Assembly: GCF_021917145.1 (NCBI RefSeq)
Contig: NC_061061.1
Location: 13,518,908 to 13,582,907, forward strand
Length of the DNA: 64,000 nucleotides
Source of the DNA: Hypomesus transpacificus
Lineage: Eukaryota > Chordata > Actinopteri > Osmeriformes > Osmeridae
Reading direction: 5' to 3'
Program-made: the position numbers and the translations under genes
In this document: positions 1,973 through 64,000 of the stretch, in pieces
Numbering within the stretch: the stretch's first letter is position 1
Layout: each line of letters begins with the position of its first letter
The notes under the pieces: model-generated
Seen by the model: only the letters and a program-made list of their open reading frames with translations
Databases searched by the model: none
Told to the model about the DNA's origin: nothing

Positions 1973-3293
1973 CAGTGGCGTAACTATAGGGAGTGCAAGG
2001 AGTGCAGCTGCACTAGGGCCCGTGGCGAAAGGGGGCCCGTCCTCGATGTAAAAGTGAGACAACCTGACCGGGCCCCTTAAGGCAATCTGACCGGGCCCCT
2101 TGCACCGCTCTAAAATCGCAAGTTGCGGATCACATATGATCCAGTCTTATGAATTCGCAAACATTTCTCAATTATGGTGTCAGTTATTCAGAATTTTGAG
2201 CTATCACCTGCCCAATAAAAAACAGTCAGTGTTAACAACAGCAAATAATTCATTTTTCCTCATTTGCCTTTTGCTGAATGAAACAAATCTCGTTTTTATT
2301 AAGTAATATTGCCCTCGAAAAATAGCAAGGATGTCTCTGTAATATTGTTGTCAAAGATTCCCGCCCACCCACACACGATTGTTCCCATCCAGTTGTTGGA
2401 ATACCACAGACAGTTGTTGTTGGGATACTACAGTTGTGTTGCATTAGCGTTTTGAAGCGAATTAGGCTACCCCATGCCATTCCCTTTAACATAAAAGTGG
2501 CTCCAGAAAGCGGCAGGAACGAAAAGAGCAAGATTTAAGGGTGGCAAAGCTGTCAAAACTATCCTCATTTGGATTTGTGGCAAAGCGTGTTGAAGAGGAC
2601 ACTACGTCTGACCCCCAGCCCGGCAACAGCAATGAGTGTGAAACTCAGCCACCAGGGTAGGCTAATAATTACATAACGTTAACTGTCTGGTGTATGCAGT
2701 TGACATGGCTATTAAACGTCATAAAAATTCACATATAGGCCGAGGCTATACCAGGCAGCAGCCAGGTTAGATATAGTAAACTATGTGCAGGATGTAGTCG
2801 GAAAATAGCTAAAGCTAGATAGACTAAATGTAAACTAGCATATCTAACGAACATAAAATCAAATATTCACCATCGAAGTGACTGTTTTTTTTTTTTACTA
2901 GTACCCAGATAGCACACATGACAGATCGAAACGTCATTCATAACGTCGGATAAGCCTCGGTAAATGATCAGATTTTCTTTTCATCTCTGTGCTCTATTTA
3001 AACGTTGCAGATACGTCGGCTCATGACTGACTGTTCCATTATGCTCATTCCGTGTTGTAGCAAGCATAATCTAGAGCCTGAGACTCGCGAGTCAGAGACG
3101 TTCACTTTTTAAACCGTCATCCAACTTCACATAGAAGGAGCAGTCGTTACCCTTAATTGTACATCATAAGTAGCCTAAATTTCCTTGCGCATCGCTAAGC
3201 TCAACACTCAATAATTTCGCTTGACGATAGGTCGGTAAGGGGCCCGTTGGTGAGATCTGCACTCGGGCCCGCCAAGTCCTTGTTACGCCGCTG
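1973..3293 (+). mobile_element. hAT-superfamily DNA transposon relic with 8-bp target duplication
   Basis: The element begins CAGTGGCGTAAC and ends in the imperfect inverse GTTACGCCGCTG. It is flanked by a perfect 8-bp direct repeat CAGTACAC at 1965-1972 and 3294-3301, the target-site length of hAT elements. At 1321 bp it is far too short for an autonomous hAT. Inside, 2490-2657 is an open segment coding a basic peptide (HKSGSRKRQERKEQ, then LSKLSSFGFVAKR) followed by a stop and a GTAGGC donor-like site at 2658. It resembles the N-terminal exon of ZMYM-type hAT transposases in fish. The catalytic part is missing, so I infer an internally deleted, non-autonomous copy. Confidence 0.88.
2490..2660 (+). 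pseudogene. hAT transposase N-terminal exon remnant
   Basis: A stop-free segment of 56 codons lies between TAA (2487-2489) and TAG (2658-2660), inside the hAT element. Its translation is rich in Lys/Arg, with the string RKRQERKEQDLRVAKLSK and then SSFGFVAKR. Basic, low-complexity starts of this kind are typical of the leader exon of fish hAT transposases with a zinc-finger (ZMYM/TTF) region downstream. No BED finger, RNase-H core or dimerisation domain follows. Family assignment is by resemblance only. Confidence 0.5.
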
Positions 3294-3784: not shown

Positions 3785-5549
3785 ATGTTTTGTGGCCCAA
3801 TCATCGCACGTTGGAAGAAACATCTGTGGAATAGTGTTATATTTTGTTACCTTCTTTCAGGTGAGAAAGTGATTTTATGTTATCATTGGGACTGATATCA
3901 CAGGGACTGATAATTTACTGGACTAAATACTGCTGCTACTCAATAATTGTATAAAATCTGTTTTGTCAGGTACCTGGTCACAGATTAACGTTGTCCAGCA
4001 ACCGGATGTGGTTTTAATCAAACTGTGTGGAAATGCCATGTTAAACTGCGTATTCACCCATACCCCCGACATGAAAGTCTCCAACAAGCCGATTCTGTAC
4101 TGGGAGTTTATGAGTCAGAACAAATCAAGACTGTTTCCCAACCAAGAGCCACAATACAACGGCCGTGTGGATGTTCTGGACGATGTTCAAAGTTCACCCA
4201 ACAAGTCTATTCTTTTTAGGAATGTTCGGTGGGAAGACAGTGGGAAATATCAATGCATGCTTTCATATGAGAGGGATGGAGATAGTGAAAGGAAGAGGGG
4301 AGCAGGAGTTAAACTCTTAATTTACGGTAATTTCACATCTTTCAATTGACAAGATGTAGCTATCACCTTTTTACAAGGTGTGGTATTTTAAGAGCATTTT
4401 AAATGATTTAGATAATAAATGTTTAAACAAAGTGTTGCTTTTTGCAAAGGATCAGATATCATCTGATGTGTGTGTGTGTGTATGTCTGTCTGTCTTGTGT
4501 TTCAGATTCTGCTATCTTTGATGTCCTTCCTGAGAGTAAGGACCAGCTTCGGTGTGCCATAAATGTCTCTCAGGATCCAGGATTGAACTTGTCAATGTAC
4601 CATAATGGAGTGCCAATAGACACAAGAAGAAATGACACCCTCTTTAGCCCTTTTAGACAGCTGTCTGTATACATCCCCTTGAAAGAGGCTGGTAACTATG
4701 AGTGCAAGCTTAACCTGGCATCCAAACTGATACTGAACCGCAACTACTCTTATTACCCTGGTAGTGTATTTTTGTATTACATTTATTTTGACCACATTAA
4801 TTTCTGGGCGTTGTTGAGAACTGGAGGGGGGGGGGGGTTGCTGGTAGCAAGACATTTAACCTTGATACTCTAATCTCAGTAGAGATGTAAATTAATTAAT
4901 CAGCATGTTGAAGAGAAAATGTCTAGTCCATGAAGTTACGTAGTAATAATTTGAACAAAACTGTGTTTTGAAGTCCTTCAGCTATGATTTAGAAACACAG
5001 ATTTGGGACAAATTAATCTGTATTGAGACTCTTTTGTAAATCTATTCCAAGATGATGGTACAAAGTACATAAAAGTTACAAAAATCTGTTAAGAAATTGG
5101 GAACAATTAACAGGATAAAGTCTTGCAAACGAAGAGGGTATTCACCCACACACAAAAAAACAAGAAATTAAGGGATTCCAAGTTGGCTTTTGAAATAAAA
5201 TAACACAGGGACTAAGCCTTTGATTAAGCAAAGGCCAGCCGACCCTTGCTACAATCACTAGACCACAAATCCCTTTAGGCCTCACAAAACGTTAAGCATA
5301 AAAAAGAAACAGTAGTTCATAACTAGTGCTACATGAAAAGAGTATAAGGGCTAGAGTGTAAAAAGTATAACATCAACAAGGTGTATGATTCTCACAGTTC
5401 TTTATCCTCTGGTCTTGTGTTCTTCAGAAGAGAAGATTCTCCCCGAGCCTTGGATCCTGTACGTGGCCATCGTCTCAATCCCTTTCACTGGAATTTTGAT
5501 CCTGCTCACTGCCTGTGTCTTTAAGTTTAGAAGCAGGGGCGCCTCATAG
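3785..5549 (+). CDS. Two-Ig-domain type I membrane protein, tail rewritten by a MITE
   Basis: Four exons join in phase: 3785-3860, 3970-4326, 4506-4760 and 5428-5549 (269 codons plus stop). Exon 1 encodes a leader starting MFCGPIIARWKKHLWNSV with a hydrophobic run to about residue 25. Exon 2 is a V-set domain with the first Cys (MLNC), core Trp (LYWEF) and DSGKYQC. Exon 3 is a second Ig domain (QLRC ... AGNYEC) with several N-glycosylation sequons. Exon 4 supplies one transmembrane helix (about residues 239-263, WILYVAIVSIPFTGILILL) and a very short tail. No ITIM, ITAM or TM charge is visible, so it may act as a ligand or adhesion molecule or need a partner. The present stop lies inside a hAT-type MITE inserted in exon 4. 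I do not recognise the orthologue. Confidence 0.8.
4467..4481 (+). repeat. (TG)n tract just upstream of an exon acceptor
   Basis: A pure TG run lies 25-39 bp upstream of the acceptor at 4504-4505 of the Ig gene's third exon. UG-rich tracts at this distance can bind splicing regulators in other genes; whether this one does so is inference. Confidence 0.7.
4826..4837 (+). repeat. Poly-G run (12 G) in intron 3 of the Ig gene
   Basis: A simple homopolymer lies 66 bp past the exon 3 donor. It is listed because such runs are common sites of assembly error. Confidence 0.8.
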
Positions 5550-5678
5550 GGGGGAAAAGTTAGGACAATTCCAAGGGCCCCTGACTGACGGGGGCCCCAA
5601 AAAATGAAAAACGAATAGAAATTATAAACAAACAAAAAAATGCTATCATGGGGCTTAAAATTCCTGGTGGCGCACCTG
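5534..5678. mobile_element. 145-bp hAT-type MITE inserted in the Ig gene's last coding exon
   Basis: The element begins CAGGGGCGCC and ends GGCGCACCTG (imperfect inverted termini). It is bracketed by a perfect 8-bp duplication TTTAGAAG at 5526-5533 and 5679-5686. The left duplication is coding sequence of the host exon. The first 16 bases of the element supply codons and the TAG stop (5547-5549) now used by the Ig gene. Short size, hAT-like ends and 8-bp duplication identify a non-autonomous hAT derivative. The inside has a GGGCCCC pair and no coding capacity. Confidence 0.88.
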
Positions 5679-5994
5679 TTTAGAAGAGAGTACATTTGTT
5701 AGCCAACATTGAACTTGAACTTACTGAACTTTTAATTATAGTTTTTGCAGCAAAATGTTTTGGGCTTTTTTAGCAAAACTCTGAACTGTAGCAAGTTTCC
5801 TTCAACCAGGCATGTCTGTGGCCAGCAGTTCTCTGGGTACACAGGGTGATCCCATCTTTTTTACAAATCCTTCATGACAACTGTTATCCAAGATGTCCTA
5901 CAGTTTTAGCTATATTAAATCATTCTCTGTGAGTCTCCCTATCAATCATTTTATGGATGTTTGTGACACTGGGTGTGGAAGAGAACATGTAAAT

Positions 5995-6438: not shown

Positions 6439-6967
6439 TTCTGTCAAAGCACGGATGGACGCATGTTTTACATTCAAAACATAAATTACGTATAAAGCAA
6501 GGTTCTCAAGTTTTATGAAATGTTGGCGTGGGATTACAAGCCTATACTTGAGTGCAGCAAACTAATAAGTAGGGTACAACAGCAAAGCAGGTATGTCTAT
6601 CATTATTGCCATCACAGGGCATTGATCTAACACAAAAAGATAGTTGTTGATTGAAAAAATATGTATCTTTAAGAAACAGTGAAGGCTACCTAAATTGAAA
6701 CGATCAGATCCTTAGAAAATAGAAAATCCTTAAAAATAGTTCCCTCATCAATGTGGTCTCAGACTTATAGACTAAATATTAATTATCTTCTGATGTTGCC
6801 CTTTAGTGGCACGATAAAGCTGACACTTCCTCTGTGGTAATTTTTTAATTCCAATATGTAGGTTTGTTTGATATTGTTCTGCAGATAGAAAACCTCTGCC
6901 GCACTGCTGGCCCTGACTGACCTGAGTGGCACAGTTCAGCTCTTGGTCTTCCATAGGGACAACTACC

Positions 6968-8062
6968 ATGATCCTGCCCTACTTGGCTCCCCAGTTACTG
7001 CTGCTCCGCAGATTGAGCTCCAAGCCTTTCATCAGCAACAGGCTTCGGGACAACTACCGGGCACTGCAGCTCCCAGAGGATGGAGAGAGCAGCCCTGCCC
7101 AGGTGAAAGAAGCCTACCTAAGCATGGCAAAGCTCTACCACCCGGACTCTGGCACTGCCACAGCTGATGCAGCGCTATTTGCCAGGGTTGAGGAGGCTTA
7201 CCGTGCAGTCTTGGCGCACAAGAGACAAGTTCAGGCCAGCGGAGCAGAGAACGTTGAGGAGGAGGATGAGGATAGCATGAAAGGTATGGTTCCTCAGCAC
7301 CGACACTATCTCAGCTATGAGGGCATTGGCTTGGGCACACCGAGTCAGCGGGAGAGGCAATACCAACAGTTCCGTGTTGACAGAGCAGTTGGGCAGGTAC
7401 TCGACTATCGCCAGAAGGAACATGAACGAGCAGCGGCTGAAGAAGGGGAAATAGTGGTGAGGGATAAGCAGAGCCGGCAGATCAAGATTACCCAGGCAGT
7501 TGAGAGGCTGGTAGAGGATCTGATCCAGGAGTCCATGGCCCGTGGAGACTTTCGCAACTTGAGCGGCTCCGGAAAGCCCATCAACAAGTTTGACCACAAC
7601 CCATATGCTGACCCCATGACCCACAACCTCAACCGGATCCTCATAGACAACGGGTACCAGCCACCATGGATTGTCATGCAGCGTGACATCCGTGAGACCA
7701 CTGTGCAGCTCCGTGAGAGGCTGCTGAAAGGGAGGGCAAAGTCAGGTGAATCTATGACTTTGAGGGAGAACGCTCAATGGCAGCAGCTTTGTGGATCCGT
7801 ACGGGAGGAACTTGTGAATCTAAATAAAATGGTGGACAACTTCAACCTTGTTGTACCAATGCTCTCCCGACAGATGGTCCATTTCAGTTTGGACCGTGAG
7901 ATTGCCATTGCAGAGAAAGCGGCCCACCAGCACAGACAGAAGAGAGAGATGAAAAGGGAAACTGAAAAAGAAAAGAGGAGGGAGGAGAGAAAGAGGACTA
8001 AAGTGGGCACACAACAGACTACACAAGGTTTACTATCATGGATGACGAATTTACTCAAATGA
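6968..8062 (+). CDS. dnajc28: DnaJ homologue subfamily C member 28, mitochondrial
   Basis: One uninterrupted coding exon of 364 codons, close to the roughly 388 residues of human DNAJC28, also an essentially one-exon gene. The start ATG at 6968 opens an Arg/Leu-rich presequence (MILPYLAPQLLLLRRLSS) expected to target mitochondria. A J domain follows at about residues 27-90, with the diagnostic HPD in KLYHPDSG and helix III around ALFARVEEAYRAVL. The conserved DUF1992 module is at about 170-240 (AVERLVEDLIQESMARGDF, SGSGKPI, NGYQPPWI). The C-terminus is a Lys/Glu/Arg-rich helix ending GLLSWMTNLLK. The family are J-domain co-chaperones; the client is not known from sequence. Possible poly(A) signals are ATTAAA near 8151 and AATAAA at 8310-8315. 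It is convergent with kcne1. Confidence 0.95.
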   Translation: MILPYLAPQLLLLRRLSSKPFISNRLRDNYRALQLPEDGESSPAQVKEAYLSMAKLYHPDSGTATADAALFARVEEAYRAVLAHKRQVQASGAENVEEEDEDSMKGMVPQHRHYLSYEGIGLGTPSQRERQYQQFRVDRAVGQVLDYRQKEHERAAAEEGEIVVRDKQSRQIKITQAVERLVEDLIQESMARGDFRNLSGSGKPINKFDHNPYADPMTHNLNRILIDNGYQPPWIVMQRDIRETTVQLRERLLKGRAKSGESMTLRENAQWQQLCGSVREELVNLNKMVDNFNLVVPMLSRQMVHFSLDREIAIAEKAAHQHRQKREMKRETEKEKRREERKRTKVGTQQTTQGLLSWMTNLLK

Positions 8063-8569: not shown

Positions 8570-8992
8570 TCATCCTGGAAGCTGCTCTAATGCTGAAGGG
8601 TTGCGGATGACAATGAGGTCTTTGCCTTTTTCTCCATGGTTTAGGACTCCCCCATGCTGTACCTGAGTGACAGCTTTTGAGGAGGTAATAGCCTTGGTCC
8701 AGTCGTGGGCAATGTACTGGTGATAGGGGTCATGGGAACTCTCCAGCTTCTTAGAGCGGATATAGCTGAGCATGATGCCAAATATAAAGAAACTGAACAT
8801 TCCCACAATCAGCAAAATGTACACCATCCCCTGAGCCTGGTCTGGAGTCATAGTTATACTTATTGGGAGAACTGTCTGCTGAGTAGTATTATTCTGAGGG
8901 AACACAGGGACAGTCACCCCGGTTCCATTCAGGCAGTGCTGTAGGAAAGCGAGCAGGAGAGACGGCAGCTCTGTGCGGTTGAAGTGCAGCAT
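8570..8992 (-). CDS. kcne1: KCNE1-type potassium channel beta subunit (MinK)
   Basis: A single coding exon of 140 codons; human KCNE1 has 129. ATG at 8992 is preferred because it puts an N-glycosylation site at residue 5 ([10 protein letters not shown]), as in mammalian KCNE1, and an acceptor (TTGTTACAG) lies at 9020-9028, just upstream of the 5' UTR bases. There is one transmembrane helix at about 60-80 ([18 protein letters not shown]), then the family signature [12 protein letters not shown] and [12 protein letters not shown]. Two more sequons, NGT and NNT, lie in the ectodomain. KCNE1 is the accessory subunit that slows and enlarges KCNQ1 current. The cytoplasmic tail after residue 100 is divergent. 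The 5' non-coding exon was not located. Confidence 0.92.
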
Positions 8993-10643
8993 TTCCAACC
9001 TCTTTGGGTGGTGAAGGTAACTGTAACAAAGGCAGCAAATGAAAGAAAAGGCTTTGTCATAACCAACTCTCAATTAGTGTAACCACGACACCCCCCAACT
9101 TATGTAAACGTTTTAGCATCAGACCTCACCTTAATATCTCCTTTTCTGAATGAAGCACCTTTGATTAAGAAATGCCTTTTCTTTTGAGCTTTAAAAGACA
9201 AAGAGGGATACATCTCTTATCCCAATGCATGTCTGTGATTATGTTAGTGAAATGAACTGGTTAAGTGTACTGTGCTTTTAAATATACAGAAATTGCAATA
9301 CCTTTAGAAGACCAACTGCATCAAAGTAAATAAAGCTGAGACGGCTCCTATTATTGTAGAGTCTTGGCTGTATTCAGGAGTCTTGGAAGCACTGTAATTC
9401 ATTACTGTAGGTCTCGTATGTGTATATAAAAAACTGGTCTCACCGTACTATAGCTCCATCTCAAAAACAAACACACTCACCCAGTCTGATGTCTTTCTCT
9501 CTTCCACATACATGCATTTCATGTCTTGTTCCCTTTTTCAAGCCACTCTCCAATCCCTCACACACACACCTCTTCATACAGGCATAATCACAGGTATAGA
9601 GTGACAGCGGTACATTCAGCTTGTCAACACTTTTAATGAAATAGATGTCCAGGATCGAGAGACCAAGGTCAATCTCAGCAGGTTACAACAACTGCTGTGT
9701 AGTTCAGCATTATGACCACAGGCTTGCATTCTTAAATGGTTCATTCATGGTTACTTCACCCCCCAAAAAAAATCTCAGATCCCTGAGGGAAATGTGATTA
9801 ACAGATATTATGTTTATGTCTGTGGTGTAATCAGTCTTTGGTCGTATTTAAAAGGTTTTGATAATATTGACACAAATTATATCCTACTCACGTATATTTG
9901 GAATATTTTGTGATTTATGGCATGTTTGTGTTGGTATATCATTGCGATGGAGCTAGGTTGTAGCGGTTGAACAAAGCAACAGTCAGACTTGAAGGAGGGT
10001 GGAGACACTACAGACAAGATTCAGTTACACAATGCCCTTCAAACATCCTTCCTTGTCTCCTCCAAAGTACACCGTGGTTCTGTAATGTTGAGATTAAGAG
10101 TAACATCCAATAGGCAAGGAGTCTCAGAATGTAAGCTATGAATACTGAGATACCTTAAAGATACAGATACAGTATAGTGTTACTACATGACCCATATAGT
10201 CAACCGTGTACACTTGTTTTGTACAACAAAGAGTGACATAATACATTTTCACAATAACTTTTCAGCAAAAATGTAAACACTGTAGGGACATTTTGCTTGA
10301 GCTGTAAACTGTGTTGACACTAGACAGAAAATCAATTTGTCACTTCACTTCACTTTTATTGTGCATTTCACACAACTGAAAAATCACATTTTTGAAAAAT
10401 AGTTATGGTTACTTAAGAGAGTGGTTAACATGGTAATACTGTATGTTCTCTTACAGCATAATATATCTTCATGTCTTTAGATCTGTTGGACATAAATTGA
10501 GAAAATAGAACATCAAGTCACAAAAAAGTATTCACTCCTTAAATGTATTACTTTTACAAAATGTTGTACTGTTACTTGTCCAATATAATCACAACAACAT
10601 TAAAGAGGCCGACTATTTATCAAAATACTCACCATTGTGTAAA
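8993..10643. other. kcne1 to scn1b interval, no gene seen
   Basis: AT-rich intergenic DNA between two minus-strand genes. It includes the kcne1 upstream region and the scn1b 3' UTR. A short string AAAAAAGTATTCACTCC near 10524 resembles decayed Tc1-type terminal sequence but has no partner. Nothing else was identified. Confidence 0.55.
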
Positions 10644-17572: not shown

Positions 17573-35692
<18,120 letters not shown>

Positions 35693-38420: not shown

Positions 38421-41201
38421 CTATACTGCCCATGTTTCATTGCTCTGTTCTGGGGATGTTGGTGTCACATCCGGGCACTGCCAAGAGGACTCAATGCCTG
38501 TAGATATAATGTTTAGGCTGTCAAGGACCTCCTGTGCAGTCTTCCCCACCATACCCTGCACATCGCAGACAAAGCGGTACACATAGCGTTTGCCTGCCGT
38601 CTTGTGGATAATGTTCTTGTGGTAGTAGTAGCGTAGACCACGACTCAACTTTTCGTAGTTCATCTTGGGCTTGTTCTTGCACTGGCCCCAACGTTTGGCC
38701 ACCTGACCCAAGACAGATGAAAGGTGATTAATCATGGTGAATCAGAGATCCATAGACTAATATGACATGACTGCAGGTAAAACAGGTCTTCATATTCTTT
38801 CTTTTTTTACACAATGACAACATGTTAAATGTCAACTTTCTTTAAGCTGCCAGATGATAAATAAGATCACCTCTGCTGGATCAGACATCTTGAACTCCCA
38901 GCCGTCTCCAGTCCAGGAGATAAAGTTATGACAGGCAGAGTCGAGCAGAAGCTCCAGTAAGAACTGCCACAACAGGATAGGGCCAGATCCTGAAAAGAGG
39001 AAAAAATCCCATGTTTACTGTGAAGCATTTAAGATACATATAAAGGAGTTCAAACTTGATTGTTGAAAGATGTGGGTGTTTGTTTCATCTTGAATGATAA
39101 TATAAGCCTGGAAAATTATCTTCTGTAACAAATAGCTAATTTAGGTCCAAACAAACAACAATTAACACTAAAAAGGAGCCAAACCATGCAAACATACAGG
39201 GAAGCCACTTTCTTACCTGGATAAGTTGACATGCCCACCATCTGTCCTTCTCTTGCTGGTCTTTGGGAGTGTGTACTTTTGCGTTTAGCCACACGGGGGC
39301 AGTACTGCTCTGGGGACTGGGATCCAGCTTTTGAAGCAGTTGGGTGTGGCATGGGGGCTGTGTAGCCAAGCGTAGGATATTCAGGCCAGAAAGAGGAAGA
39401 TCTTTGTTCTTCCAAGTCATACAGCTCACCTATGTTGTGGCCATAACTCTGGACTACTTCACCTGTGTGGAGGGACAAAGAAAGTTTGAGTCATTATTTA
39501 ACATACATGGGCCTGTTTGTTTAATTAGGATGACAGTTTTTTGTGTAAAAATATTACCAAGATGGTCTAGGCTGACAGTGCTGGTGATTCCTCTGTGGTT
39601 GGTGTCTTTACTCTGCAAGAAAGGGCTGCTGGCGTCATCTATGCCTGGGCTCAATTGTCCTTTCTGGGGCATTAGACTGTGGTAGGTCTGAGTGGAATGG
39701 TCCAAAGTCACCGCATCTTGAGAGAAAATAATTGGTATATTTTTCATCATTATTCATCATTCGTCAGATCATGTGATCATTACTTAAATTAAAAAAATGT
39801 AAAATATGCACTCACCACGTGGGTTTGACGCCCAACAGCTTAACTCTGGGTATGAATCCAGGTTGAACAGTACAGAATCATTGGTGTTTACTGAAAATCC
39901 CATGGGAGATAACTTAAATTAATCTGTAATTTTGACTGAAATGCTTTTTTTGTATTGCTATAATAATGTGCTGAAATATTTCTATTTGTATTTCAATATA
40001 TTGTTTATATATAAATATTGCAGGTTTACCTTTGATATCATGTAGGCATTTTTGTTTTTGTGGCTCTCGGTAGCTGTCCAGGTACTGCTGCTGCCCAGGT
40101 CCTTTACTGTCTAACAGAAAAGACAGGTCTTCACCATTGTAGTCTGAAGGTGACAAGCGTAGGAGAGGGAAGAGTTAGATGCAGTGTGCATTGAGAAACA
40201 GCACAGAACAGGCTCGAGAAGAGGCCACAGAGAACAAAGGCTAATGTTGTTTTAGTGAAACAGGGAAATGGGTGGAAGATTTGTTCAAAAATATATATAT
40301 TTAAAGGACCATCTCAAGGAAAATATAGAATGAACACAATCTGTTTTCTGTCAGACTCAGCACCGAGTTCATTGAATAAAGGGAGAGGAAGAAACTGAGT
40401 GGAAGAGGAGGAGGAAACACAAACGGAAGGAGTGTGACAGAGTAGTGATGAGAGGGTTCTAAATCTGTTGGAGGAGGAAATCTGGAGGAAAGGATTAGGG
40501 GGAAATGAAAGGGAGCAAAACTGGGAGTATCTTTAACCTGACCACCTTGTCTCTAAGCCTCCATTCAGAAATCATTCAGAAATAGTTGATGCACAAATAC
40601 ACCACCCCACCCCATGACACTGACCCTGGTTTGGGCAAAAGGACCAAATGTCAAGGTCCCATTATATTATGGTCACAGGGGTGTTTGCAAACATTTCCTT
40701 TGTCCTTCAATTGTTCAGAGCAACCGGATATATGGAATGGATGGTCTGCAAGCCTTTGTAAGCCTTTTTTGCTCAAACTTACAGATGGTTGAACAGTTAT
40801 GGTTTGTTTGAAGACTAATTCATGTTGATTACAGGAAAATCCAATTAAAACATGGCTTACCATATGCTGCAAAGTCAAAACCAGCAGGAACTTCTTGTGT
40901 TCTGAAGTCTGTGTAATGTCCAGCTTGGTACATCTCCATCTGGAAAAAGATGTGTAAACATTTAAGATACATGGATTTTCTTCTGAAAACTATACTTTCA
41001 ATAGTCATGTATATTTGATATGCTGTGATTTTATTTGAAAGGTTTATTATCTCTGTTCACACAATAGCCTACAATATCTAGCCTATAATATATTATGTGA
41101 ACTCTGCATAAACACAAAGCATAAGCTACACGATGTCCTACCTTTATAGAATCTTTGTCTAAGTCTCTCTCGATCGTTTTATGGATGTTATCCCAGTACA
41201 T
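38421..41201 (-). CDS. etv2: ETS transcription factor Etv2 (Etsrp)
   Basis: Eight exons on the minus strand join in phase to 377 codons plus stop: 41142-41201, 40861-40939, 40030-40143, 39816-39890, 39558-39716, 39217-39462, 38871-38989, 38421-38702. Zebrafish Etsrp is of similar size. The N-terminal half is acidic and Gln/Ser/Pro-rich ([19 protein letters not shown]), as expected for an activation domain. The ETS domain fills the last two exons, about residues 245-330: [25 protein letters not shown], then [20 protein letters not shown] and [12 protein letters not shown]; the two DNA-contacting Arg of helix 3 (RGLRYYY) are present. There is no PNT domain, as in Etv2. In fish Etv2 is the master activator of endothelial and blood progenitors. 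It lies head to head with fli1b, as in zebrafish. Confidence 0.93.
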
Positions 41202-50900: not shown

Positions 50901-53231
50901 TTTAGGTAGTCCTACTTTTTCATATGCTACAACTCCCACCAACACACCACAACAGCCAAGACTACAGGTCAAAGCAGGTAAGGGACCTCCATGAATTATA
51001 ATTATTAAAACTAAGGACAACTTGTGCTAAATCCTTTGACTGCAAAAAACTGATGTTAACCTACTTAAAAAATGTAGTGAATTAATAGATGGTCATTGCT
51101 GAAGTGACAATATGGCAGGAAGCACCTATTAAAATATTGCATTACTGTGGGGCATTAAATAAATGCAATGCAGTGGATTGTTGAGACTGCACAGTTTAAA
51201 GAGCTGTAGCGTTTTCTGCCTAAGCAGGGCCCCAAGTTATTCTTTTGATGAGCACACAACTTAAAGCCAGTTTCAAACAGGACACAGCTGCACAAGTGCA
51301 GGAAATGGGGGTAAATGTCCTCTTTGGGACACAATTGGCAATCTTGTGGCAACAAAGGTAGTCCAGACAAACGGCGTCCTGGATCATCTTAAGCACTCCT
51401 TTGTTTTTGAATATTTCAGTATTGGTCATCATTTACAGGCTTTCGTCCTTCCATGGACGGCCTATCCTCTTCAAAGTCCTCTCTGACTGGTCAGGTCTCA
51501 TCTTTGTTTGTTTTTTGAGCAGAGAACAACTTTGAGGAGATAAACAGGAGGAACAGCTGGCCATCAAATGCCATAACTGCTGTACCAAAGGGTATGATGA
51601 TAAACACAATACACTACCTTGCGAAACCACAGTACTGTTCAAAACCAATACTTCATCTCATATTGTCCTGACAACAGTTTTTGACTGATTTCATAAGTGT
51701 GTAAAAACAGATGTTGATTTGTCCAGTACAATAAGAAACAGACGCAGGACATTTGTCCTTACAAATATTCCTCTCTCCTTTGAATTAGCTACTCATATGG
51801 AACACCAACACAGTGCCAGGGTCACAGAACCTCCCCAAAGAATTGTTCAACAAGGTTTGTGCAACAGCATTTGTTAATATCTCCTTCAACCTACAGTATT
51901 TGAGAATCAGTTGTAATGCAATTACATTACAATGAGGATATAACTTTAAATTGAAATGACATGTTACAACACTGTCAGTCTAACACATTTCACATTTCAT
52001 TTTCGTGCAGACCCTTACCAAGCATTAGGCCCCATCAGTAGTCGTCTAGCCAACCCAGGTGAGAACATGTACCACAGCTTAACAAAGAATACCAGTAAAG
52101 TCAGAAGAAATGTGTTCTTTCCACTGTTTGCTTTGGTGACAACATGAGGGAGCACACAATCCATATCGGGACTTTGAGGACCAAAAATATTCTGTAACAT
52201 ATGAATAGTCCTCAAATTCACTTTTAAATTTACATTCACATAATTAGTTACATCAAAAAACATTCCCTGAACACTGAGCTGTGTCCAGCTAAACATCAGT
52301 ATGACCCTTTGCCCCCACTGTCTCCTAACAGAAGGCCAATCCCTCGAACCCAAGATCCGAACAGCTAAACACAGTTCTTTAAGGCTGCCTGACCCAAGCA
52401 CTCACAGGCCTGTGGGTAGGTTCCTGGCCTGTCTTGCCCTCACCATGGCACACAGTGAAAAAGTCACATTTGCACAGAAAAAAAGAACCTAGGCATCAAA
52501 CATTAATTCAAACTTAAGTGCGACTTTCATCACTATTAGTTTGAGTTGTCTTTTGAGGCTTTGGGCCATAGGGCAATCCTTATCTATATGCCAGTCATGT
52601 CAGGAGTATGGAGAGTTTGTCAATTAGTGTATTCCCCACAGTGCTTCATGTGTGTAGACATCATTTTACACAGCACCTTCACCAGTTCTTTTTTCTGTTT
52701 CCCTTCCCAGGCTCTGGTCAGATCCAGCTGTGGCAATTCCTGCTGGAGTTACTGTCAGACAGCAATAACTCTTCCATCATCACATGGGAGGGAACCAATG
52801 GTGAGTTCAAGATGACTGACCCGGACGAGGTTGCCAAGCGTTGGGGTGAGCGCAAGAGCAAGCCCAATATGAACTACGACAAGCTGAGTCGCGCACTGCG
52901 CTACTACTATGACAAAAACATAATGACTAAAGTGCACGGAAAGCGTTATGCATACAAGTTCGACTTCCAGGGCATATCCCAGGCACACCAGAGCCATGCT
53001 GGGGAGGGCACCATCATCAAATACCAGGCGGAGCCTTATGTGCAGTCCTATCACAACCACCAGCCTAAAATGAACTTCATGAGTGGGCATGCCGCACCTA
53101 TGCCTGTGTCATCTGGGAACTTTTTTGGGACTCCATCAACATACTGGAACTCAACCAATGGTCCCATATATCAGGGCACACCCATGCCCAGACACCCAGG
53201 GACTCATTCCCACCTAAGCTCATTCTACTGA
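44976..53231 (+). CDS. fli1b: ETS transcription factor Fli1b
   Basis: Nine exons in phase give 456 residues (human FLI1 452): 44976-44993, 48950-49152, 49315-49484, 50606-50809, 50906-50977, 51523-51591, 51789-51854, 52011-52058, 52711-53231. Exon 1 codes only MDCTIK; exon 2 continues [16 protein letters not shown], the signature start of FLI1/ERG. A pointed (PNT) domain is in exon 4 ([20 protein letters not shown] ... [10 protein letters not shown], about residues 133-198). The linker spans four small symmetric exons and ends [16 protein letters not shown]. The ETS domain is at about 286-370 ([46 protein letters not shown]). The C-terminal activation region ends [12 protein letters not shown]. 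The protein binds GGAA sites in endothelial and blood lineages. A candidate 84-nt cassette exon lies at 52332-52415. A poly(A) signal AATAAA is at 53773-53778. Confidence 0.95.
44994..48949 (+). other. fli1b intron 1, candidate enhancer-bearing intron
   Basis: A 4-kb intron after the six-codon first exon. No gene or complete transposon was found. Poly-A/T tracts and many TAGCCTA words continue from the upstream interval to about 47 kb. First introns of FLI1/ERG genes often carry endothelial enhancers; that is known of the family and not shown here. Confidence 0.45.
52332..52415 (+). other. Candidate fli1b cassette exon of 84 nt
   Basis: It is bounded by TCCTAACAG and GTAGGTTC, with no stop in the required phase. 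Starting and ending in phase 1, like the exons on both sides (ending 52058 and starting 52711), it could be included or skipped without changing frame. It would insert 28 residues ([19 protein letters not shown], then PDPSTHRPV) between LANP and GSGQIQLW, immediately before the ETS domain. FLI1 and ERG in mammals join LANPGSGQ directly, so this would be fish- or lineage-specific if used. Confidence 0.45.
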
Positions 53232-62300: not shown

Positions 62301-63928
62301 TACAACCTAAACCATGCTACTGTATGCATTTCTCCATATGCGCAGGGTTAGGGTTGGCCATATTTTCATTGCACCATCTGATCAAACCAGTTTCTGAAGA
62401 GCATAGAGACACACCCATTCCAAAGACATTGAGTCTATTTTAGCAGGCTTCATATGAAATTCAATTATGTCTTAACAGGTTGCATATTTAACTGAACCTA
62501 TCAAACAACTCTTCACCCATACACTGCTTACTGTTTCAGAATCCACAGATTTGTTGTCATCACTATTGGCTGTAGGTTTCTGTCCACGTTTCAGCTCCAT
62601 CTCTAGAGTGTTGATACGGGCCATGGCCTGAACCAGCTGTCTTCTCAACTGGCTGACTGCAAGATGCATTCTACCTGTTATGTGCTAAATTGAAATAAAA
62701 TTCATGAAAGTCTTAGTTGACAATGAAATATATCAGTTAAATAACCACTGCTCTTCTGATATTTGTTCTGGCCATAAAAAGTAATGGATGACCTAATACA
62801 CTGCTCACATTGACTGTGTCAATATTTACATTTCCGTGACAGATTGGAAACCTGCAGATAAGTGCTATGATTCTATGATCTAGTGTCGTGTTGGCTTTTG
62901 AGGCATTACAAAAAAATAACTCACCTCTGTATGTAAGGGAATAAACTCATCTGTTAGAAGATCGCTTCTCTCTCCATTCAGTTCATCTACGTTTTCTTCA
63001 TCCTCCCCGTCTCCAAAATTCAAAGCCCTTGTCACAATTGGTGATGACACCTCTTCAGCCTCCCCTGTATTTCTCTCTTCCTTCCTTTCCAAAACAGGGA
63101 TTCTACTTCCTGATGGTGAAGTGACTGGCTTTCTCTCAATACTCTTCAGATCTTGAAGCACCCTTACTAGGTTGAAAGACTGATCAACACACCAATCCAA
63201 ACAATCATTACCATCTAGCGAGTCCACAGATTGGCTGGACGAAGGCACTTGTAAAGACAGGCTGGACCCGACCAGTGAAGCTGCGCTGGAACTGAGTGAA
63301 GGCCTTCTTGACCAATGAAGAGGCATGCTCTGTGACTTTACTCGTGATGAGGCAAATGGGGAGAAGGCTTGGAATGGCAGGTAACGGGGAACGCCACAAA
63401 CAGACTCATAATCTGAATCAGAGACCCTCAGTGAATCACATCCCTCGCAATTTTTACCTTCCTTGCATTTTTTACCGGTTCTCCTGAAAAATGTGCACCG
63501 TTCCCACTTCTCAGACCAGCATTCAAACTCTGAAAGAACCATATTCTCCGTAAGCATATCTCTGTAACCCTCTTTCTCCTCCCCTCCATCCTCTTCACTA
63601 GTGTTGCTCTCAGTTCTGAAGCCATGAGGGTGGTGCTGGCGGTATGCACTGCGTACCCACTGTCTGATCTTATCCCTCTCCTGGTACAACTTCTGCAGCC
63701 TCTCAGATGACAACACTCTCACTCTGGCTATCACTGTGTCAAATTTGAACACTCGCTCTAAAACTGACACACATTTTCCGCACAAAAACTCCTCTTGTCC
63801 GCTGCCTCTGGGTACAGACTGCCCCAATATGTGTGTGAGTATGGACAGAAGGTCTATTCCTTTAGTAGGGGTGAGCGAGGTATGGAATTTTGAGATGGAA
63901 ACTGAGGACGCAAGAGATGTAGTGCTAC
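59346..63928 (-). CDS. Compact myomegalin (PDE4DIP)-like protein with a ZAD-like N-terminus, 5' partial
   Basis: Exons on the minus strand: 62925-63928, a possible 22-nt microexon 62830-62851, 62532-62674, 61595-61663, 61044-61193, 60732-60899, 60342-60533, 59615-59806, 59346-59417 (stop). The big exon matches the long PDE4DIP isoform: LLSILTHILGQSVPRG, FLCGKC, RVFKFDTVIARV, LSSERLQKLYQERDK, GCDSLRVSDSDYESVCGVPR and SPSGSRIPV. The second Cys pair of the ZAD zinc knuckle (LCGKC) is here; the first pair must be in an exon beyond the right edge. The rest is coiled coil ending LQELQQNLLNN, only about 340 residues after the big exon, whereas myomegalin runs to over 2000. The microexon is inferred because the phase between 62925 and 62674 needs one extra base. 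Function (centrosome/Golgi/Z-disc scaffold) is by family only. Confidence 0.8.
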
Positions 63929-63939
63929 CTGTGAGAGGC

Positions 63940-63955
63940 GGGGGGGGGGGGGGGG
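63940..63955 (+). repeat. Poly-G run (16 G), antisense to a polypyrimidine tract
   Basis: On the minus strand this C16 run lies 12-27 nt upstream of the acceptor at 63929-63930 and would serve as its polypyrimidine tract. Length in the assembly should be treated with caution. Confidence 0.85.
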
Positions 63956-64000
63956 ACATTAAAGATACACATGCAGACATTAAGGCACACACAGACACCC

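Follow-up and report, generated by a model that had tools for sequence, protein, structure and literature searches.

A 145-bp hAT-type miniature element supplies the stop codon of a B7-like membrane protein gene with no change in protein length

The window (the whole 64-kb stretch of Hypomesus transpacificus DNA analysed here) carries on its plus strand a sequence-derived gene model of four exons at 3785-5549, which when joined read open for 269 residues and have AG..GT at the intron borders. The coding part of exon 1 (3785-3860, +) holds the start codon and, judged by eye, a likely signal peptide, and ends at a GT donor; exon 2 (3970-4326, +) encodes a V-type Ig domain (Pfam V-set, residues 35-142), exon 3 (4506-4760, +) encodes a second Ig domain (Pfam Ig_2, residues 153-213), and the coding part of exon 4 (5428-5549, +) encodes a membrane helix (hydropathy peak at residues 242-260), the tail KFRSRGAS and the stop codon. 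Both domain matches lie above the Pfam cut-offs, and that of the second domain is not to C-set. The resulting layout, in which a leader and two Ig domains (the first of V type) are followed by a membrane helix and an eight-residue tail, agrees with a first-pass annotation that had described the Ig domains and the helix as intact, and it fits a B7-like, two-Ig membrane protein. Among solved chains, the nearest to the predicted receptor is the kinase-like otk (7.6e-8), followed by CD276 (1.2e-6) and PD-L1 (3.9e-5).

The receptor gene is single-copy in the 437-Mb assembly (376 contigs), where the gene and both flanks of the insertion described below were each found once. When the protein in its empty-site form, as read with that insertion removed, was searched against its own genome, it returned its own four exons and two other matches, with E values of only 0.72 and 0.90, and no paralog bearing the old tail was found in this search.

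Profile matches mark several neighbouring coding stretches, namely DNAJC28 at 6926-8059 (+), an ISK-type potassium-channel subunit at 8573-9073 (-), two ETS domains at 38424-38741 (-) and 52572-53228 (+), and a SMYLE N-terminal domain at 62883-63998 (-). The presence of DNAJC28, the channel subunit and the two ETS-domain stretches indicates that the window comes from a vertebrate. Elsewhere in the window, a 358-codon open frame at 28729-29802 matches domains of Tc1-type transposases over residues 81-152 and 161-319, and 26451-27030 holds short repeated units of LTLDPS type, probably a minisatellite, in which both strands have several open frames.

Exon 4 contains a 145-bp element (5534-5678, +) that starts CAGGGGCGCC and finishes GGCGCACCTG and is flanked by two copies of TTTAGAAG, at 5526-5533 (+) and 5679-5686 (+), the left of which is coding sequence. 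This arrangement, which the first-pass annotation had pointed out, was read directly and recovered by script, with 145 bp between the copies. A G precedes both copies of TTTAGAAG, extending the repeat to nine bases. An exact match of eight bases at a named place would arise by chance about once in 65,000 cases (4^-8), and a chance repeat as the origin of the pair was ruled out by alignment of the element's family. A search of the element's own genome yielded at least 40 matches (L001-L040, the window copy included) scored among 200 candidates, which is a lower bound; 27 of the 40 span the whole element in one alignment, and the other 13 were omitted as partial, split into two pieces or missing an end by at least 3 bases. 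The full-length copies measure 134-161 bp, making this a small, non-coding, multi-copy family. Their flanks carry 8-bp duplications that are exact in 14 copies (window copy included), match at seven of eight positions in 6 and fare worse in 7, although the 27 are not all independent: a single duplicated locus seems to underlie L007 and L008, and the duplication sequence is the same in L016 and L037. Because duplications match at seven or eight of eight positions in 20 of the 27, the boundaries of the element are independently confirmed. Within the 64-kb window, the search for a second copy gave nothing beyond weak matches, none with an E value below 0.024.

The window copy has imperfect terminal inverted repeats, which we identified by eye as CAGGGGCGCC versus CAGGTGCGCC, the script's best self-match being an inner palindrome. 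The majority sequence of the family reads CAGGGGCGCCG at both ends, and the ends of the element pair with each other in the predicted RNA fold. Ends of the CAGGGGCG type are typical of hAT elements. In the duplications of the family (n=20), T occupies position 3 in 14 and A occupies position 6 in 12, a preference from which the target patterns of Ac and Buster differ. Judged by its anatomy of 8-bp duplications, short inverted ends and absence of any gene, the family is a hAT-type MITE, a class for which ends of 10-25 bp and 8-bp duplications are described in the available text of PMC3942097; the assignment, first proposed from the single copy, is supported by family copies with matching ends. 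A second hAT-like element, 1321 bp long, lies just upstream of the receptor gene at 1973-3293; its ends read CAGTGGCGTAAC and GTTACGCCGCTG, and CAGTACAC flanks it on either side as an exact 8-bp duplication.

With the element in place, the reading frame of exon 4 ends in KFRSRGAS at the TAG at 5547-5549 (+), which corresponds to element bases 14-16. When the flanks are joined after one duplication, the frame instead ends in KFRREYIC at the TAG at 5700-5702, and the former coding sequence together with this old stop (5687-5702, +) now belongs to the 3' UTR. Both frames reproduce those given in the first-pass annotation, and its conclusion that the MITE supplies the stop and moves the 3' UTR is supported, the rest of the old frame having become 3' UTR. 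Its further statement that residues coded by the element had replaced the native tail holds as to the replacement, but the old end was swapped and not shortened: the protein has 269 residues with or without the element, and only the last five differ (SRGAS versus REYIC). The first new codon is formed partly from the duplication and partly from the element, and a Tyr and a Cys of the old tail are lost. Its remark on the tiny size of the earlier tail is correct for the empty-site reading, in which five codons were left before the stop. To call the element exonised, in contrast, is loose and misnames the mechanism, since the MITE inserted directly into an existing exon and needed no new splice site.

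The stop codon arrived with the element. In the frame that was entered, 20 of 26 full-length copies (the window copy counted and L008 dropped) have a stop at element bases 14-16. The family majority reads GTATAG up to and including this stop and the window copy reads TCATAG, so that two private changes just 5' of the TAG converted a Val codon to Ser while the stop was kept. Read forward, the element most often meets its first stop at 30, 16 and 41 bases in the three phases (18, 20 and 9 of the 26 copies, respectively); among the reverse phases, one most often has its first stop at 33 (20 of 26), and the other two are stop-free in 7 and 5 of the 26. Since early stops occur in all forward phases, a stop supplied by the element is the expected outcome in this orientation and not a rare accident. 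The equal lengths of the two protein forms follow from where the element landed and thus provide no evidence of selection.

Exon 4 is probably the terminal exon of the gene, given that no good donor precedes the old stop, that ATTAAA, a candidate polyadenylation signal by motif only, occurs at 5914-5919 (+), and that DNAJC28, which shares the receptor's strand, has its open frame starting at 6926. Donors were scored with a crude matrix. By this measure, the GTs that follow the helix and precede the old stop in the empty site score -8.67 (5525), -3.47 (5690, AGA/GTACAT) and -4.73 (5698), and the highest of these values is equalled or exceeded by 37% of all GTs in the window. Within the gene model itself, the donors score 6.89, 2.61 and -1.07, and because the last value is that of exon 3, a poor score is compatible with a donor at 5690. 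Two further sites that might bypass the new stop were set aside, one at 5459 (score -0.05) because its use would remove the helix, and one at 5559 (score -0.47) because it lies 3' of the stop.

If the ancestral gene had possessed one or more separate cytoplasmic-tail exons reached from a donor near 5690, then the insertion would have truncated a longer tail, and the stop after KFRREYIC would never have been used. Related genes lend some weight to such a history. B7 members are among the closest sequence matches of the receptor, and in many ray-finned fish (nine of 13 representative sequences) PD-L1 has a long conserved tail from exon 8, according to the available text of PMC12151841. CD80/86 genes have 7 exons in grass carp, 6 in zebrafish and 8 in trout, compared to four here, in an account whose available text leaves the tail-coding exons unspecified (PMC9245511), and a fish pIgR gene is described, in a source available in part, as encoding its tail in further exons. 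We nevertheless regard loss of a longer tail as unlikely: the donor at 5690 is weak, the ATTAAA and the same-strand DNAJC28 frame leave little room for additional exons, and the long PD-L1 extension is missing in other fish, salmonids included, in the same available text (PMC12151841). A short native tail encoded to its end in exon 4 is the reading that we carry forward.

We then considered how long the element has been in place. The window copy differs privately from the 25 other full copies at 7 of 145 positions, a fraction exceeded by only 3 of those 25, and its terminal branch in a FastTree phylogeny is 0.095. Among the matches listed, its best full-length relative is about 86% identical, and in the 5' part of the element identity rises to 95.5% with the closest partial copy, L011 (89 aligned bases); the 3' half is AT-rich and hard to align. 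We take the divergence since insertion to be an estimated 3-9%, some of which may predate the insertion, as the source copy possibly lies outside our sample. The insertion does not look recent, which makes the rare private insertion entertained in the first-pass annotation less likely. We sought an empty-site haplotig or allele in this one assembly and found none, with each flank present once, although absence from a single assembly says nothing about other individuals, and on that ground the insertion could be private to the individual sequenced, present at low frequency, or an artefact of assembly. However, a fresh insertion should have a closer sister copy than any among the matches listed, from all of which this copy has diverged, and a perfect 8-bp duplication is not something that a collapse error can produce. 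We therefore consider a private allele or an assembly error very unlikely, and the insertion is presumably fixed.

The same divergence bears on whether the gene still functions. The start, the frame, the splice borders, both Ig domains and the helix are intact despite 3-9% private divergence of the element, and under a neutral-decay estimate in which the rates of substitution and of indels were assumed, at eight substitutions for each indel, a dead gene would retain an intact start and frame with a probability of 0.028 at 3% divergence, 0.0033 at 4.8% and 1.6e-5 at 9.5%. The intact frame thus argues for use of the gene after insertion, though not strongly at the low end of the range. Against this, the weak donor of exon 3 is what one might see in a gene that was disabled or is being lost, with the insertion as a neutral passenger, an explanation that we consider quite improbable in view of the features that remain intact. 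Most likely, the gene stayed in use after the insertion and its product retained its function.

Taken together, these data favor an account that we hold to be probable, in which a hAT-type MITE landed in a terminal coding exon and exchanged the protein's tail without altering its length, and the gene was kept in use. A non-autonomous element would have entered the last coding exon of the B7-like gene by cut-and-paste transposition, duplicating TTTAGAAG; as its left end contains a stop in the frame entered, translation would terminate 16 bases into the element, and as the old frame had just five codons left, the length and domains of the product would be preserved while REYIC gave way to SRGAS. 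With its stop in the probable last exon, the message, if the gene is expressed as we presume, should escape exon-junction-dependent decay, and it would carry a longer and more structured 3' UTR. The element's RNA is predicted to fold at -45.2 kcal/mol (z -2.75, with 1 of 200 shuffles as good), and the stop codon falls within the stem formed by the paired ends. We claim no special role for this hairpin, because inverted ends fold by construction. A bolder proposal is that selection has long maintained the five-for-five MITE end and its stop-holding hairpin as the only terminus of a single-copy B7-like ligand, with a membrane-proximal Tyr and Cys removed; this we offer tentatively and regard as rather doubtful.

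The locus is a clean example of a DNA transposon, and not a spliced-in retroelement, providing a gene's only evident stop with no domain spoiled. Most phases of the element soon run into a stop, so that an insertion only a few codons short of a native stop changes almost nothing, which shows why such insertions can survive. Should orthologs prove to be occupied and their frame constrained, the locus would offer a natural exchange of a receptor tail that can be dated.

That mobile elements can supply stops or protein ends is already known (PMC8615635, PMC6824096, as far as their available texts describe); the new points here are that the stop was brought by the element, that protein length is unchanged and that the insertion is not recent-looking. 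Among the papers listed, our literature search returned precedents of this kind and none on the receptor gene or the element, in a coverage that excludes most subscription journals and so does not prove absence. Exonised Alu elements, as in DAF, Bcl-rambo and PKLR, likewise give a host transcript its stop and 3' UTR, but in the cases covered by the available text of PMC8615635 these are mostly retroelements that are spliced in, often in an alternative isoform, whereas here a DNA transposon lies directly in a coding exon. The BuT2-related hAT MITEs, as far as described in PMC3942097, share with our element 8-bp duplications, short inverted ends and small size. In wheat, exon 6 of one gene holds a 307-bp miniature element, Mariam, which, as here, has a target duplication, lies in a coding exon and alters the protein end, with a stop at insertion position 41 (PMC6824096). 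According to the available text of that report, Mariam differs in having no inverted ends, in its 9-bp duplications, in being present in only some accessions and in disturbing the end of a domain (PMC6824096), whereas the insertion described here touches no domain and leaves the length of the protein unchanged.
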